The notes under the pieces are model-generated. The model made no database searches and was not told where the DNA came from. It saw only the letters and a program-made list of their open reading frames with translations. DNA of 34,765 bases from Desulfobulbaceae bacterium (GTDB lineage Bacteria; Desulfobacterota; Desulfobulbia; Desulfobulbales; Desulfobulbaceae). Numbering within the stretch: the first letter of the stretch is position 1; each line of letters begins with the position of its first letter. Below are positions 1-7,988 of this stretch, piece after piece. The stretch is taken from contig WFRY01000160.1 in the NCBI GenBank assembly GCA_015486315.1, forward strand, positions 1-34,765. The letters run 5' to 3'. The translations under genes and the position numbers were made by a program.

Positions 1-474
1 CCCTGTTTCTTCGTCCGAGTTGAAGACGAGCACCAGGGGGATCTGTTCCAGCAGCCCCGCCTCTGCCAGGGCGGAAACGGCAAACATGGTGACCACCAGA
101 CCGCCCTTCATGTCGATTACACCGGGGCCATAGATTTTATCAGTATCTTCCCGGAACCAGTTAAAGTCCGTATCTTCAGGAAACACGGTATCCATGTGAC
201 CGGTGATCAGGATAAACTTCGTGTTTCGGTTTGCAGCAGGCGTTGTAAAGACCAGATGATCACCAGACTGCTCCTGGACTATTCGTTCACAGTGCAGCGG
301 AATATGGCTGAAAAAGGTTTCAATCACACGGCTGACTGTATCCACACCGGTTTTATTGTATGTGCCGCTCTGGATCAGGACCATTTTTTCCAGGAGCTGC
401 AACATCTCCGGTTCCCGGGCAGACAGTGAGGTCAAAACCCGGTTCAGCATCGTCTCCTCCTGCTGTTCATCCAT
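1..474 (-). CDS. M20 family metallopeptidase (glutamate carboxypeptidase/deacylase-like), C-terminus beyond the window edge
   Basis: Reverse-strand reading MDEQQEETMLNRVLTSLSAREPEMLQLLEKMVLIQSGTYNKTGVDTVSRVIETFF...KFILITGHMDTVFPEDTDFNWF...IYGPGVIDMKGGLVVTMFAVSALAEAGLLEQIPLVLVFNSDEETG; M20 motifs GHMDTVFP, GPGVIDMKGG and NSDEETG. Open from 474 to base 1. Confidence 0.85.
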   Translation of the reverse strand, partial: MDEQQEETMLNRVLTSLSAREPEMLQLLEKMVLIQSGTYNKTGVDTVSRVIETFFSHIPLHCERIVQEQSGDHLVFTTPAANRNTKFILITGHMDTVFPEDTDFNWFREDTDKIYGPGVIDMKGGLVVTMFAVSALAEAGLLEQIPLVLVFNSDEETG

Positions 475-534
475 AGCGGAGACGGAAATTCTACGTCCTT
501 GAACCCGCCCCCAGGCACCATGAACCTTCCCATC

Positions 535-2085
535 TCAATACCTGGCAAAAGAGAAGTCGTCTCTTTCATACTCTTTCCTGTCGGCATCCGGGTAGCGAAC
601 CTCCTCCCCGCTCCAGGGCTTGCGCAGGATGAGTTCATCTCCCTCTCTGCCCATGACATTACTGCGGTGCATGGGAATCTTCCCGCCGGCAGTTGCTATA
701 TAGCGGGGAATGGCATCGCCGGAAATATTTCCGTACATGGACTCGACAATATCCCGGCCTCTTTCCACCGGAACCCTGAAGTGGACAAACTGAGGATTTC
801 GATATGAGCAGTTAAAGATATAATAGGGCCGGACATAGGCCTCCTGTATAGTCTCACAGAGTTTCCACATCTTCACCCTGGAGTCATTGATTCCACGCAG
901 CAGGACTGCCTGGTTGAGCACCGCACAGACCCGACCGGAAATGTTTTTAAACGCCTCTCTGGAAACAGGAGTAATTTCCCGGGCCGTGTTGATCTGGGTG
1001 ACGACCCGAACCGGCTTGCGATCATTTGATTCTTCAAGAATGTTCAGCAGTTCCTCATCAATACGCATGGGAACCGTAACCGGTACCCTGGTACCGAGAC
1101 GCTTGAGTTTGACATGATCGATGGAATCAAGTTCGGCCAGCAGCCATCTGAGCATTGAATTGGGCAGGACAAAGGCATCACCACCAGTGACCAGCACGTC
1201 GCGTATTCGTTTGTCGGACCGGATATAATCCAGGGCCTCACCATAGGCCTCTTTGGAAAACATTTTATCCTTTTTGCCGATATGGGCAATGCGCAGGCAG
1301 TGCGTACAGTACATGGCGCACATATTTGTCGATTTAATCGTCACCACCCGGGGATAAAACTGATCCACCAGCCGGGCCGGCGAATGATCTGCCGCCACCG
1401 GCGGTATCTCTATCCCCGCATTATCCACCATCTCACCGGTAGGAATGGACTGGAGCATAATCGGATCATTGACCTCTCCGGCCATAATCAGGCTGGTGTA
1501 ATACGGCGTAAGACGCATCCGGTAATTTTGGGTCACCCGGATAATGTCCTCGGCAGCGGCAGGTGAGAGATCAATGAGACCGGCAAGCTCATCAACTGAG
1601 TTGATTGCATGCCGAATCTGCCCGGGAAAGGAATTCCAGTCGTCATCAGTCATGGCCAGCTTTTTCTTGATCCGTTCCTGGTTGGCCAGAATAGTATCCC
1701 ATAACTCTATACCCGATGGCGCCTCAACATCCTTACGGGCCAGGTACTCCTCCACCCGGGTATCGGCCCGAACAACTATCTGCAGGGCCTGCCCTACCCT
1801 GCCTCCGATGGAAACCATGTGTTCATCAATCTGCTGGTGCTTATATGCGAGTTCTACAAGCTGCTCCCTGGTGATGTCAAAGGCTGCAGCTGAAATGCCA
1901 CGGTTCCGAAAACCGATTAATGATCGAAACAAGTTTACTATCGAGCCGGTTTTTTCCCGGGTTACGGCAAGGGAAAATAAATCGGCTATCTCCTGCAGCT
2001 CATTCGGCTTTGGTCGTTTTTCAGTCCCTTGCTGCTTAAAAAGCGAATCAAGGAGTTCAACTGTGTACCGGTCCAGATCACTCAT
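535..2085 (-). CDS. KamA-family radical SAM amino acid 2,3-aminomutase
   Basis: 516 aa ORF; CAMYCTHC (CxxxCxxC) [4Fe-4S] motif followed by LR, DVLVTGGDAF (GGD SAM motif), VRPYYIFNC, and ATAGGKIPM containing the likely PLP Lys. Confidence 0.92.
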   Translation of the reverse strand: MSDLDRYTVELLDSLFKQQGTEKRPKPNELQEIADLFSLAVTREKTGSIVNLFRSLIGFRNRGISAAAFDITREQLVELAYKHQQIDEHMVSIGGRVGQALQIVVRADTRVEEYLARKDVEAPSGIELWDTILANQERIKKKLAMTDDDWNSFPGQIRHAINSVDELAGLIDLSPAAAEDIIRVTQNYRMRLTPYYTSLIMAGEVNDPIMLQSIPTGEMVDNAGIEIPPVAADHSPARLVDQFYPRVVTIKSTNMCAMYCTHCLRIAHIGKKDKMFSKEAYGEALDYIRSDKRIRDVLVTGGDAFVLPNSMLRWLLAELDSIDHVKLKRLGTRVPVTVPMRIDEELLNILEESNDRKPVRVVTQINTAREITPVSREAFKNISGRVCAVLNQAVLLRGINDSRVKMWKLCETIQEAYVRPYYIFNCSYRNPQFVHFRVPVERGRDIVESMYGNISGDAIPRYIATAGGKIPMHRSNVMGREGDELILRKPWSGEEVRYPDADRKEYERDDFSFARY

Positions 2086-2157
2086 GTAAACTATCTCCTG
2101 CAGGTCTTTGATTTCGGGCGTGATTTTCCCTGAAACGCATTTCTGCTTTTTGTGACA

Positions 2158-3534
2158 TCATGGTCTTATTGTCAAGTCAATCATCTTCCGGCCCAGTGCA
2201 AGCCCTTCCTGCACATCCTGCATGTTCTTTCCCGTGGATACCACCCTGGCAAGAAACGTTCCGGGCTGGACCTGCAAACCCGAGCCGACATGTTCCAGAA
2301 CGAGAAAATCTTTCGCAAGCTTCCCCCCGGCAACCTTGGCAAAACTCTGCCGTTCATGTTTGGCCTGGGGAATATAGCCACAGGTTTGACGATTCTGTTT
2401 CAGCTTATAATTATAGGTTCCCCAGCACAGGACAGGATCGGGAACTATAGGTGGTTCCACCATATTCTCAGGAAACCGGTTTTTTTGAACTGCAAAATAT
2501 TCCAGTTCAGGAAGGTTCGGACTGCCGGAGGGCAGCATCTGCTCAAGTGTATAACAAAATTCAAGGGTCGTCCCCTGCTTGCGGGCATTGATCTCGATAA
2601 AGCGCACTTGATTGTCCCTGGTTATAATATAATCACAACCAAAAATGCCGCGATAGCCATGACGGCCAATTTCCTGCCCCACCTTCCGGGTGCAGTCACA
2701 GAGCTGTTTGATCAGGTCCGGGGCAAGGACAGAGGGCCAGGTTGAACCGACAAAATGGTTGCCTCCCTCGATGCACTGATCAGCTACCCCGGCTACAAAG
2801 ACATCCTTTTCATTTGCAACCACGGCCAGCACGGTGGGATCACACTCATGGTTCATATAACGGGTGATCAGAAACGGGGCATCGTCTTGTGTAAAAAAAC
2901 CCTTAATATCCGATTGGCGTCGGGTAACAATACTTGCAGAACCTGCTGCACTGTAGACGCGGGAAACAAAAATTCCGTCAGCCCATGATGATCGTAAACG
3001 CTCTGTTACTGCAAGCAGTTCAGGCATGGAATTACATATTTTATACTCAACCAGGGGAATAATACCGTCAAGCAGCTTAAACTGGACCGCCTTATTATTA
3101 AATTTTCCGGATAGATCCTTGTCCGGACCAAGGAGATAAACATCCCTGCGCTGGTCAAGACGCATCGCGGAATCACTTTCAAACATGTATATATAGAGCT
3201 GATCCTGATGAGTAAGGATTTGATCAATGAGTGCGTGGATGGACTTGTTTTTGGACACGGATTGGAGAAATGCGCCTGTATTTCGGCGAAAACTCATCGG
3301 TCGTTTCTGCAGATTCTCCCCGGCATCCGGAGAGGGAACAATAAGGTTTACATAGTTGTACTGATCATGCAAGTCCGGAACAATGGCAATACATTCAACC
3401 GGTCTGCCCTGGATTTGTGACCAGAGATCACGAAGATACTCTGTCAACCCATGACTTTTGAGTTCACCGATATAGAAAAAATAATATATGTCAGGATCAT
3501 ATCTGAAATTAGTAAAAAAATAATTATTTCCCAT
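2158..3534 (-). CDS. ATP-grasp domain protein (putative amide/peptide-forming ligase)
   Basis: Long ORF; likely start MGNNYFFTNFRYDPDIYYFF at 3534 rather than 3615; C-terminal GIFGCDYIITRDNQVRFIEINARKQGTTLEF is ATP-grasp-like (D...F.EIN.R..G). Confidence 0.8.
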   Translation of the reverse strand: MGNNYFFTNFRYDPDIYYFFYIGELKSHGLTEYLRDLWSQIQGRPVECIAIVPDLHDQYNYVNLIVPSPDAGENLQKRPMSFRRNTGAFLQSVSKNKSIHALIDQILTHQDQLYIYMFESDSAMRLDQRRDVYLLGPDKDLSGKFNNKAVQFKLLDGIIPLVEYKICNSMPELLAVTERLRSSWADGIFVSRVYSAAGSASIVTRRQSDIKGFFTQDDAPFLITRYMNHECDPTVLAVVANEKDVFVAGVADQCIEGGNHFVGSTWPSVLAPDLIKQLCDCTRKVGQEIGRHGYRGIFGCDYIITRDNQVRFIEINARKQGTTLEFCYTLEQMLPSGSPNLPELEYFAVQKNRFPENMVEPPIVPDPVLCWGTYNYKLKQNRQTCGYIPQAKHERQSFAKVAGGKLAKDFLVLEHVGSGLQVQPGTFLARVVSTGKNMQDVQEGLALGRKMIDLTIRP

Positions 3535-4250: not shown

Positions 4251-5549
4251 GTGACCGGAAAACGCGCATTCTTTTTTTATTTATGTATTACATCCATCCT
4301 GATTGTTTCCGGGTGTGTTCAGAGTCAAAACACAGGACTGCTGGATGAACCAGGGGCATCAACCTCAAAAAAAGTATACCGGGGAAAGGTGGTAGATAAA
4401 TCAAGTAAAACTGAAACTCTTTCCATCAAGGTCGGTAATGGCGATAACACACGCATCATCAGGGTTTATTTTGACGACAGTACAAGGGGAATGGAAAATA
4501 TAGTCCCGGATAAACAGGTTGTTGTCACCTGCAAAGTCGACAGGGGACACATTACAGCAACATCCGTCAAAGCCGAAATTTCCGGATTTGTCTCCGGTGT
4601 AGAAAAAATTTCAAGCACCAAAGTAGAAAAATTTATTTCAGACGGGGAAGAATTTATCCTGATAGATGCCCGTCCTTACAGTCAGTACCAACAAAACCAT
4701 CTGCCCACGGCAGTTTCAATACCCGCCTGCGGGATGAATAAAAAAATATCCCTGCTGCCTGAAAAAAAAGAACAGCCACTGGTTTTCTACTGCGGTGGAA
4801 CAACATGTGGCATGAGTACTGCTGCAGCAGCCATTGCCGCCCGTGCCGGTTATACCAATATAAGGGTCCTGCTTGCCGGAGTTGAAGGCTGGGCTGAAAA
4901 AGGGTATCCCACCTATGCCGATGACAGATTTGTTGGAAAGGGTAATCGTATACTTATTGACCTACGTTCGGCTGATAAGAATAAGAGGGAAAGAATTGCC
5001 GGCTCAGTATCCATTCCCCTAACTGCTCTTTCGGCCAGGATCGGCATTATTTCAAAAAAAGCACCTGTTGTCGTCTACAGTGACAACAAACGGGACAGTC
5101 TTGCCGCCCTTGCCGAATTCCGGAAAGCCGGCTTTGACAATGTTTCCATGGTGGAGGGAAATATACAGGGATGGAAAAAACGTAACAATCCTGTCAGCAG
5201 TGGTCCGGTGATGAGCGAAATCAAATGGACACGGGAAAAACGCCGGGGTGAAGTCTCTCCTGCCGCCTTTAAAAAGGCACTAAATCAGAAGGCAAATGCT
5301 GTGATTCTGGATGTACGTACCAGTGAGGAGACGACTGCAGGCAGATTAAATGGAGCAAAATTGGTTCCCTTAAATGAACTATACGAACGTATCAAGGAGT
5401 TACCCAGAGATAGAGCTATATACATTTACAGTGCCACCGGTGCTCGAGCTGAGATGGCGGCCCGGCTGCTGAAGAGAAAAGGTTACAATGCCTATTTTCT
5501 GGTTGCAGATATCAGTTGTCAGGGTGGTACCTGCAAGATGACATTCTGA
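4251..5549 (+). CDS. Multi-domain rhodanese lipoprotein (N-terminal OB-like region plus three rhodanese-like domains)
   Basis: GTG start with GGAGGT upstream; lipobox IVSGC; domain 1 FYCGGTTCGMSTAAA...GVEGWAEKGYP; domain 2 VVYSDNKRDSLAAL...GNIQGWKKR; domain 3 VILDVRTSEE...IYIYSATGARAEMAARLL; C-terminal CQGGTC. Confidence 0.88.
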   Translation: MTGKRAFFFYLCITSILIVSGCVQSQNTGLLDEPGASTSKKVYRGKVVDKSSKTETLSIKVGNGDNTRIIRVYFDDSTRGMENIVPDKQVVVTCKVDRGHITATSVKAEISGFVSGVEKISSTKVEKFISDGEEFILIDARPYSQYQQNHLPTAVSIPACGMNKKISLLPEKKEQPLVFYCGGTTCGMSTAAAAIAARAGYTNIRVLLAGVEGWAEKGYPTYADDRFVGKGNRILIDLRSADKNKRERIAGSVSIPLTALSARIGIISKKAPVVVYSDNKRDSLAALAEFRKAGFDNVSMVEGNIQGWKKRNNPVSSGPVMSEIKWTREKRRGEVSPAAFKKALNQKANAVILDVRTSEETTAGRLNGAKLVPLNELYERIKELPRDRAIYIYSATGARAEMAARLLKRKGYNAYFLVADISCQGGTCKMTF

Positions 5550-6215: not shown

Positions 6216-7988
6216 TCACTGGACCAGGGCTTTATTTTTCTCAGCTACCTGATGGGCCATATCACGGCTGTGCTGTTCAAGAGCGGCTGTTAATTCAGGG
6301 TTATGGGTTGCCAGAATCCTGACCGCAAGCACTGCAGCATTTTTGGCTCCAGCCTTGCCTATTCCCATGGTTGCAACCGGAATTCCAGGAGGCATCTGTA
6401 CCGTTGACAACAGTGCATCCAATCCGTTTAAAGATGAGGCATCAATGGGTACCCCGATAACGGGCAGCGTTGTATGGGCGGCAAGAACACCAGCAAGATG
6501 AGCCGCCATACCGGCACCGGCAACGATGATCTTGAGCCCTCGACCGGCAGCCGTTCCGGCATATTCCGCAGCCTGTTCCGGGGTACGATGGGCAGATGAG
6601 ATAGTAATTTCATACTTAACGCCCATGGCCTTTAAAAAGTCTGCCGTCGCCTGCATGACGGGTAGATCTGAATCCGATCCCATCACTATCCCAACCACCG
6701 GACCACAGTTATTCCTGCTGCGGCAGAGAGCACGGTGGCCGATGTCCCTGCGAAAATAGCAGCCGTTCCACTTGATCTTATCAACCGCTTTATAGGCCCG
6801 TGCTATGGCTTTGGCAATAGTACTACCGGAGGCGGTTACGCCCAGGACACGACCTCCGGCGGTAACTGTTCTCCGGTTCTTGATCGCAGTACCGGCATGA
6901 AAGACCATGACGTTTTTCATTTTGGCAGCAGTCACCAGTCCGGTGATGGGTTTACCGGTCTCATATTTACCGGGATACCCCTGGGAAGCCATCACCACAC
7001 ATACCGTGGGGCGTGGATCAATATCCAGCTCAATTTCATTGAGTGTACCATCAATGGCTTTTTCAAATATTTCGAGCAAATCCGTTTTTAACCGCATGAG
7101 CAGGGGCTGACATTCCGGATCGCCGAATCGGCAGTTGAATTCCAGAACATCAAGACGATCACCCTTGATCATCATGCCTGCATAGAGCATGCCCTTAATC
7201 GGCCTGCCCTCCTCAGCCATACCGCGTACAGTCGGCAGCATAACCTCGTTCATCACCCGCATGGTCATGGCCTCGGTCATAATCGGCGCAGGTGAATAGG
7301 CCCCCATGCCGCCGGTGTTCGGACCGCGGTCACCTTCAAATACCGCCTTGTGGTCCTGGGACGAGGGCAGCGGCAATACGGTTTCACCATCGACAAAAGC
7401 AATAAACGAAGCCTCTTCACCCTCTAAAAATTCCTCAATAATCAGTTTATTACCGGCAGCACCAAAGGCCTTGTCCTTCATAATCAGGTCAACTGCCTTT
7501 TTTGCCTCAGACTTGGTCCGGGCAACAATTACCCCCTTGCCGGCGGCAAGGCCGTCGGCCTTGACGACACAGGGAGCACCAATTTTATCTATGTATTTTT
7601 TGGCCGGGCGCGGTTTCGTAAAAACCTTGTATTCAGCACTGGGGATGGAGTATTTACGAAGAAAATTTTTACTGAAAACTTTGCTGCCTTCAAGTTCGGC
7701 AGCAGCGGCAGTGGGGCCGAAAATCCGTAACCCCTCCTCCTCAAAGCGATCAACAATACCATCTGTCAACGGATTTTCCGGTCCGACCACGGTCAAATCA
7801 ATTTTTTCTTTTTTGACAAAATCAAGCAATGCATCAATATCATCTGCAGCAATCCTGACACAGGTAGCCAGCTTTTTTATCCCGGCATTTCCCGGGGCAC
7901 AGTAGATAGTTGTGACCCGCTTTGACTGGTTAAGCTTCCATACCAGTGTATGTTCCCTTCCTCCGGAACCAATGACCAGAACCTTCAT
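6216..7988 (-). CDS. purD-purE: Fused phosphoribosylamine-glycine ligase (PurD) and N5-carboxyaminoimidazole ribonucleotide mutase (PurE)
   Basis: 590 aa; N-terminal [19 protein letters not shown]...CAPGNAG and ATP-grasp motifs; C-terminal [20 protein letters not shown]...[10 protein letters not shown]...[25 protein letters not shown]. Confidence 0.92.

Follow-up and report, generated by a model that had tools for sequence, protein, structure and literature searches.

What does a bacterium achieve by encoding, one after another, an enzyme that joins carboxylates to amines, an enzyme that moves amino groups and an enzyme that hydrolyses conjugates? The question is raised by contig WFRY01000160.1 (C160) of a Desulfobulbaceae bacterium, analysed here over its whole length of 34,765 bp, which we call the window. 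At one end of it, three consecutive minus-strand genes with intergenic gaps of 72 and 60 bp encode an ATP-grasp protein, a KamA-type 2,3-aminomutase and an M20 metallohydrolase. An earlier note had described this row of genes and proposed that the trio could make, use or recycle a conjugate containing a beta-amino acid; the arrangement and gaps are as it stated, and its gene names are matched by Pfam and NCBIfam profiles. We find that the trio is almost certainly a real, conserved unit, with a gene order that recurs in a second phylum. On its function our answer is more tentative: the reading we favour, at somewhat under even confidence, is that these genes serve to build and to take apart a beta-amino-acid conjugate, probably a dipeptide or amide of beta-glutamate, likely serving as a compatible solute.

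Co-occurrence in related genomes had been set beforehand as the test of this idea, and the idea survives it strongly, both among 96 relatives and in the second phylum. A strong match to the ATP-grasp is present in nine of the relatives and an orthologue of the KamA in ten, with all nine contained in the ten (Fisher p about 8e-12, a value that ignores shared ancestry); in the tenth genome, G012, the KamA gene lies at a contig end. Because the ATP-grasp genomes nest within the KamA genomes, and because the gene order recurs in the second phylum, the linkage is not due to chance. Over both phyla, in genomes of which many are metagenome assemblies, KamA adjoins this ATP-grasp in 22 of 24 loci, and M20 comes next in nearly all. 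Wherever the sequence reaches far enough, the order in the window's family is ATP-grasp, KamA and M20, followed by convergent genes for a universal stress protein (Usp) and for the permease and binding protein of a TAXI-TRAP transporter. In G002 the trio is present but this transporter is not beside it. The ATP-grasp is degenerate in G004 and split into two frames in G009, a single-contig genome, so that the ligase may be in decay in these two, unless the sequences are in error. A group II intron match (L031, 5115-5252, minus strand) lies about 2 kb upstream of the split gene.

A profile search retrieved further instances of the set within the phylum. ATP-grasp, KamA and M20 stand together in G107 and G151, the contig of G107 holding just the start of M20; in G226, a single open frame of 922 amino acids comprises ATP-grasp and KamA and is followed by M20, a fusion found in one assembly; and G398 has ATP-grasp and KamA with no M20. 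Two standalone ATP-grasps, in G301 and G362, were rejected as another enzyme: they show about 30% identity, many residues invariant in the module are changed, and KamA is neither adjacent nor found in the genome. A lone KamA in G360 (L134, 1859-3457; 48% identity to the window protein) was also set aside, since it stands alone and has a changed pocket, FSMSTRHPDQ.

The second phylum, that of locus L007, carries the ATP-grasp in 11 of the 12 genomes examined. Four of them (G479, G480, G482 and G483) show a full operon of TAXI protein, TRAP, Usp, ATP-grasp, KamA and M20, and in five others (G475, G476, G484, G485 and G486) the parts of the operon are present as far as the contig, the stretch or the unmasked sequence reaches. 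The in-operon KamA of this phylum is of a glutamate type distinct from that of the window. In G477 and G478 the operon keeps ATP-grasp and M20 with no linked KamA, and each genome has an unlinked KamA with 65% identity to the window protein and 36-38% to its own phylum's in-operon type. As these genomes carry the window type in place of the glutamate type, the two KamA types probably do the same job. G039, a member of the window's family, carries another version of the unit next to the same transporter, made up of an AraC regulator, an ATP-grasp that resembles D-Ala-D-Ala ligase, a KamA of the glutamate type and M20. G007 has the same KamA as G039 (82%), M20 and the end of a D-Ala-D-Ala-ligase-like ATP-grasp cut at the contig edge; at another place in its genome, a short piece of an ATP-grasp of the first type is left. 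These exchanges suggest that the two types of KamA fulfil one purpose, and perhaps that the two ligase types do so too.

Two side observations come from the same phylum. G481, its sole genome without the module ATP-grasp, encodes an aspartate-bearing lysine-type KamA followed by a D-Ala-D-Ala-ligase-like ATP-grasp (L129, 5297-8311), possibly a lysine version of the ligase-aminomutase idea. In three genomes, a small protein with the motif FVDNGDGTVTDxKTGLMWAQTD, DUF1566-like by look alone, is encoded between Usp and ATP-grasp (L111, 2435-2947; L108, 2642-3148; L117, 4127-4639).

In the window itself, the M20 gene runs off the contig (Table 1). A second contig of the same assembly, C366, opens inside the same M20 gene, with 98.1% identity over 268 bp, and continues with the rest of M20; on the opposite strand there follow Usp, a fused TRAP permease and a binding protein of the TAXI family. 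We infer that C160 and C366 adjoin; the 2% mismatch fits a strain mixture in this metagenome assembly (485 contigs, 89% complete, 6% contamination). The leftward extension that the earlier note had called for thus supplies the rest of M20, the Usp and a transporter unseen from the window alone. Two other features of the window deserve mention. Divergent from the ATP-grasp gene, a plus-strand gene (4251-5549) encodes a protein that begins like a lipoprotein (VSGC) and contains three rhodanese domains; farther on, a single minus-strand frame of 590 amino acids (6216-7988) contains GARS N, A and C domains and then AIR carboxylase, an apparent PurD-PurE fusion.

Table 1. Genes of the ATP-grasp/KamA/M20 unit in the window
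Feature	Position	Strand	Details
ATP-grasp ligase, first gene of unit	2158..3534	-	ATG 3534, stop 2158, 458 aa; Pfam ATP-grasp_3
KamA-type radical-SAM/PLP 2,3-aminomutase	535..2085	-	ATG 2085, stop 535, 516 aa; TIGR00238
M20 metallohydrolase, N-terminal 158 aa	1..474	-	ATG 474 leftward, cut by contig end; Pfam Peptidase_M20

Domain, fold and metal motif all lead us to predict that the first enzyme is a carboxylate-amine ligase. Its match to ATP-grasp_3 (PF02655) scores 26.4 bits for a cut-off of 23.2, the metal-binding ExN motif (E314-x-N316-x-R318) is invariant in the 18 module ATP-grasps aligned, and an AlphaFold2 model (pLDDT 80.3, pTM 0.85) displays the full ATP-grasp fold. The fold alone does not fix the reaction, because the structure search ranks biotin carboxylase and PurK highest and places the dipeptide ligase BacD at rank 29. 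The only PDB sequence match is the ATP-grasp BesA, an L-propargylglycine--L-glutamate ligase (8YI6, E 1.6e-5), which differs in context and from whose family the window protein is far removed, at 26 bits against a cut-off of 750. Since BesA-like ATP-grasps make dipeptide intermediates, and since the pairing of ATP-grasp with M20 follows the logic of LysX and LysK in LysW-type lysine synthesis, one may imagine a tagging pathway: ATP-grasp would add a temporary group, KamA would act on the tagged amino acid and M20 would release the product, a beta-amino acid destined for a cofactor or natural product. We consider this quite improbable, as neither a LysW-like carrier nor further biosynthetic genes are conserved beside the trio, and as ATP-grasp and M20 stay together in G477 and G478, where KamA is not linked.

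The hydrolase and the transporter both point towards glutamate. The M20 fragment scores 56.4 bits against Peptidase_M20 (cut-off 24.6), and all aligned metal ligands and catalytic residues of carboxypeptidase G2 are kept in the C366 part and in homologues. Carboxypeptidase G2 (1CG2) is also the nearest PDB chain to the full-length homologue at L005, but the match is remote (E about 1e-25), a shared substrate is a prediction only, and the L005 protein reaches 184 of the 349 bits required by the glutamate carboxypeptidase profile. The TAXI protein of L005 belongs to the TAXI family (353 bits to TIGR02122), and the nearest PDB relative of the TAXI binding protein is the glutamate-specific VcGluP. 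Module binding proteins are 49-55% identical to VcGluP, and its key residues Y45, S75, Q93, E125 and Y200 are kept in the window organism's own protein and in related ones; they differ from it by S40 to G, D157 to Q and M201 to T, and by their linkage to the trio. The transporter supports a glutamate-type theme without defining the product.

Central to the argument is the aminomutase. The window KamA belongs to the KamA family (233.6 bits to TIGR00238, cut-off 199.2), with a CxxxCxxC motif at 256-263, the pyridoxal phosphate (PLP) lysine at 469 and the carboxylate-binding R134 kept (substrate-binding residues are numbered by alignment to 2A5H). It represents a divergent subfamily, the window type, with about 110 extra N-terminal residues, and in the tree it has a clade of its own, with good support and a very long branch; its AlphaFold2 model, with a mean pLDDT of 57, was set aside. 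In lysine 2,3-aminomutase (LAM), D293 and D330 bind the epsilon-amino group of lysine, and Lys and Asn at these positions we take to be the signature of glutamate 2,3-aminomutase (EAM). In every module KamA aligned, the Fe-S cysteines are conserved together with R134 and the PLP lysine; D293 and D330 are lost in each, with S and T in their place in all ten window-type proteins aligned. With both lysine-recognition aspartates lost, the substrate of the window KamA is very probably not lysine. The in-operon KamAs of the second type have K and T at the two positions, thus sharing the K of EAM, and score 584-632 bits against the EAM profile TIGR04368 (cut-off 650). Among 395 genomes of the phylum, G314 has the only KamA above this cut-off, with K and N at the two positions and no trio at its locus. 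Of the weaker matches to TIGR04368, the four loci inspected show no trio, and they look like lysine 2,3-aminomutases. As KamA is nearest to EAM, M20 to carboxypeptidase G2 and the transporter to VcGluP, by profiles and residues, a glutamate-type substrate for the pathway is probable.

Two familiar roles of KamA relatives can be weighed against these data. Ordinary lysine chemistry, that is, lysine fermentation or N-acetyl-beta-lysine synthesis with an ablB gene elsewhere, was named by the earlier note as what would overturn its proposal. KamA family membership would agree with it, and the window's own genome encodes a second KamA-like protein of 353 amino acids that keeps the LAM aspartates (G000:C459:7440-8501, L038); that protein falls below the LAM and EpmB cut-offs, and its gene lies close to those for malic enzyme and for a TRAP system of the DctP type. 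Besides the loss of the aspartates throughout the module, the window KamA scores 287.6 bits against the lysine 2,3-aminomutase profile AblA (TIGR03820), below its cut-off of 525.4, and ablB (TIGR03827) was found in none of 17 module genomes in a search that matched all positive controls (B. subtilis, Methanosarcina acetivorans and Bacteroides ihuae); the window's own assembly is 89% complete. We therefore disfavour lysine chemistry as extremely improbable. A search of the window's own genome for lysine 5,6-aminomutase gave no match, and no control matched either. The second role is protein or cell-wall modification with a beta-amino acid, on the model of EpmA and EpmB acting on EF-P. EpmB is among the KamA relatives, but its profile fits the window protein poorly (179.5 of 369.3 bits), M20 as a partner goes better with small substrates, either N-acyl compounds or dipeptides, and no target or aminoacyl-tRNA-synthetase-like gene is conserved nearby, which makes this reading highly improbable.

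The presence of a ligase and a hydrolase next to an aminomutase would fit a pathway in which a dipeptide or amide containing a beta-amino acid is made and recycled, and such a conjugate is the probable product; since the partners are glutamate-type, beta-glutamate is a first guess. We infer the following steps. The glutamate-type TAXI-TRAP importer would take up glutamate or a close relative; KamA would shift the amino group from C2 to C3 of a glutamate-like alpha-amino acid, most likely yielding beta-glutamate; the ATP-grasp would spend ATP to couple the beta-amino acid with another amino acid or an amine; and M20 would cleave the bond of the resulting dipeptide or amide for removal or recycling. 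Usp would probably tune the importer, in the way that TeaD acts on the TRAP system for ectoine, and the likely purpose would be a metabolically inert compatible solute. The idea of a beta-amino-acid conjugate thus stands as the leading reading, with co-occurrence observed and the lysine objections failing; its substrate, now of a glutamate rather than a lysine type, its product and its osmotic role are inferred.

Several observations weigh against this reading. The best equivalog of the window KamA is indeed EAM, but at 343 bits for a cut-off of 650. Its pocket also departs from that of EAM: S plus an inserted Tyr-Arg stands in for the K of EAM and T for its N, and three residues are lacking ahead of the PLP lysine. 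A pocket unlike those of LAM and EAM and without variation across the subfamily, on so long a branch, would suit a unit with the same make-and-recycle logic for another beta-amino acid, the window KamA taking another or a conjugated amino acid such as a gamma-glutamyl amide. We hold this to be fairly unlikely: the window type replaces the glutamate-type KamA in G477 and G478, its partners are likewise M20, an ATP-grasp of the same family and the glutamate-type transporter, and EAM remains its best equivalog. The transporter raises a further objection. A TRAP-Usp set with the same binding-site pattern also occurs in genomes without the trio (L051 and L052), beside 2-oxoacid:ferredoxin oxidoreductase genes, and in V. 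cholerae Usp also adjoins this transporter, VcGluP/VcGluQM; for both reasons the transporter does not identify the product of the trio. The oxidoreductase neighbours, the resemblance of M20 to carboxypeptidase G2 and the reversibility of KamA-family reactions would agree with a scavenging unit, in which glutamate, beta-glutamate or an acyl-glutamate would enter through TRAP, M20 would set glutamate free and KamA would convert beta- into alpha-glutamate for oxidation. This we judge unlikely, given that breakdown leaves no clear part for a conserved ligase that consumes ATP and is in one case fused to KamA, and that no further catabolic gene recurs beside the trio. Finally, an alignment of the upstream regions of nine loci shows no shared element, and a riboswitch search of the window and ten module loci returned no salt-sensing RNA, the intron of L031 being its only match.

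An osmotic role for the conjugate is suggested by analogy, and we propose it with some reserve. Genes for EAM (eam) are preceded by Na+ riboswitches (PMC9337991), methanogens use beta-glutamate as a static osmolyte (PMC1224877), it reaches 730 mM in Nitrosopumilus (PMC8269262), and the dipeptide osmolyte N-acetylglutaminylglutamine amide (NAGGN) has a synthesis operon that carries a peptidase (PMC8070244). According to a review, nuclear magnetic resonance excluded that methanogens make beta-glutamate through an aminomutase; the analogy thus extends to the product and not to the route. Like the unit, the NAGGN operon (AsnO, Ngg, peptidase) combines dipeptide synthesis genes with a peptidase, but its enzymes are the Ngg acetyltransferase/ligase, an asparagine synthase and a glutamyl aminopeptidase, with no aminomutase. 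In the abl operon, a beta-amino acid made by a KamA-family enzyme, AblA, is likewise capped by a second enzyme, AblB, to give N-epsilon-acetyl-beta-lysine; the unit lacks AblB, would cap with an ATP-grasp ligase, has lost the lysine-binding residues, and adds M20 and usually TAXI-TRAP.

No description of the trio was found in the open-access literature searched, subscription papers lying outside the search. The unit could perhaps be an undescribed class of compatible-solute system, a suggestion we make still more guardedly than that of the conjugate itself: after import and aminomutation, a dipeptide or amide of beta-glutamate would be formed by ATP-driven conjugation and taken apart by controlled hydrolysis. 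Such a system would use two aminomutase types that can replace each other and two types of ligase, and would be conserved across the lineage of the window and present in almost all of the 12 genomes examined from the second phylum. Beta-glutamate is an abundant osmolyte in marine archaea and methanogens and present in the deep ocean, and its bacterial sources and derivatives are poorly known. The window-type KamA constitutes a new aminomutase subfamily with an unread substrate pocket, and the conserved set provides named genes with which a bacterial pool of beta-amino-acid peptides may be tested.

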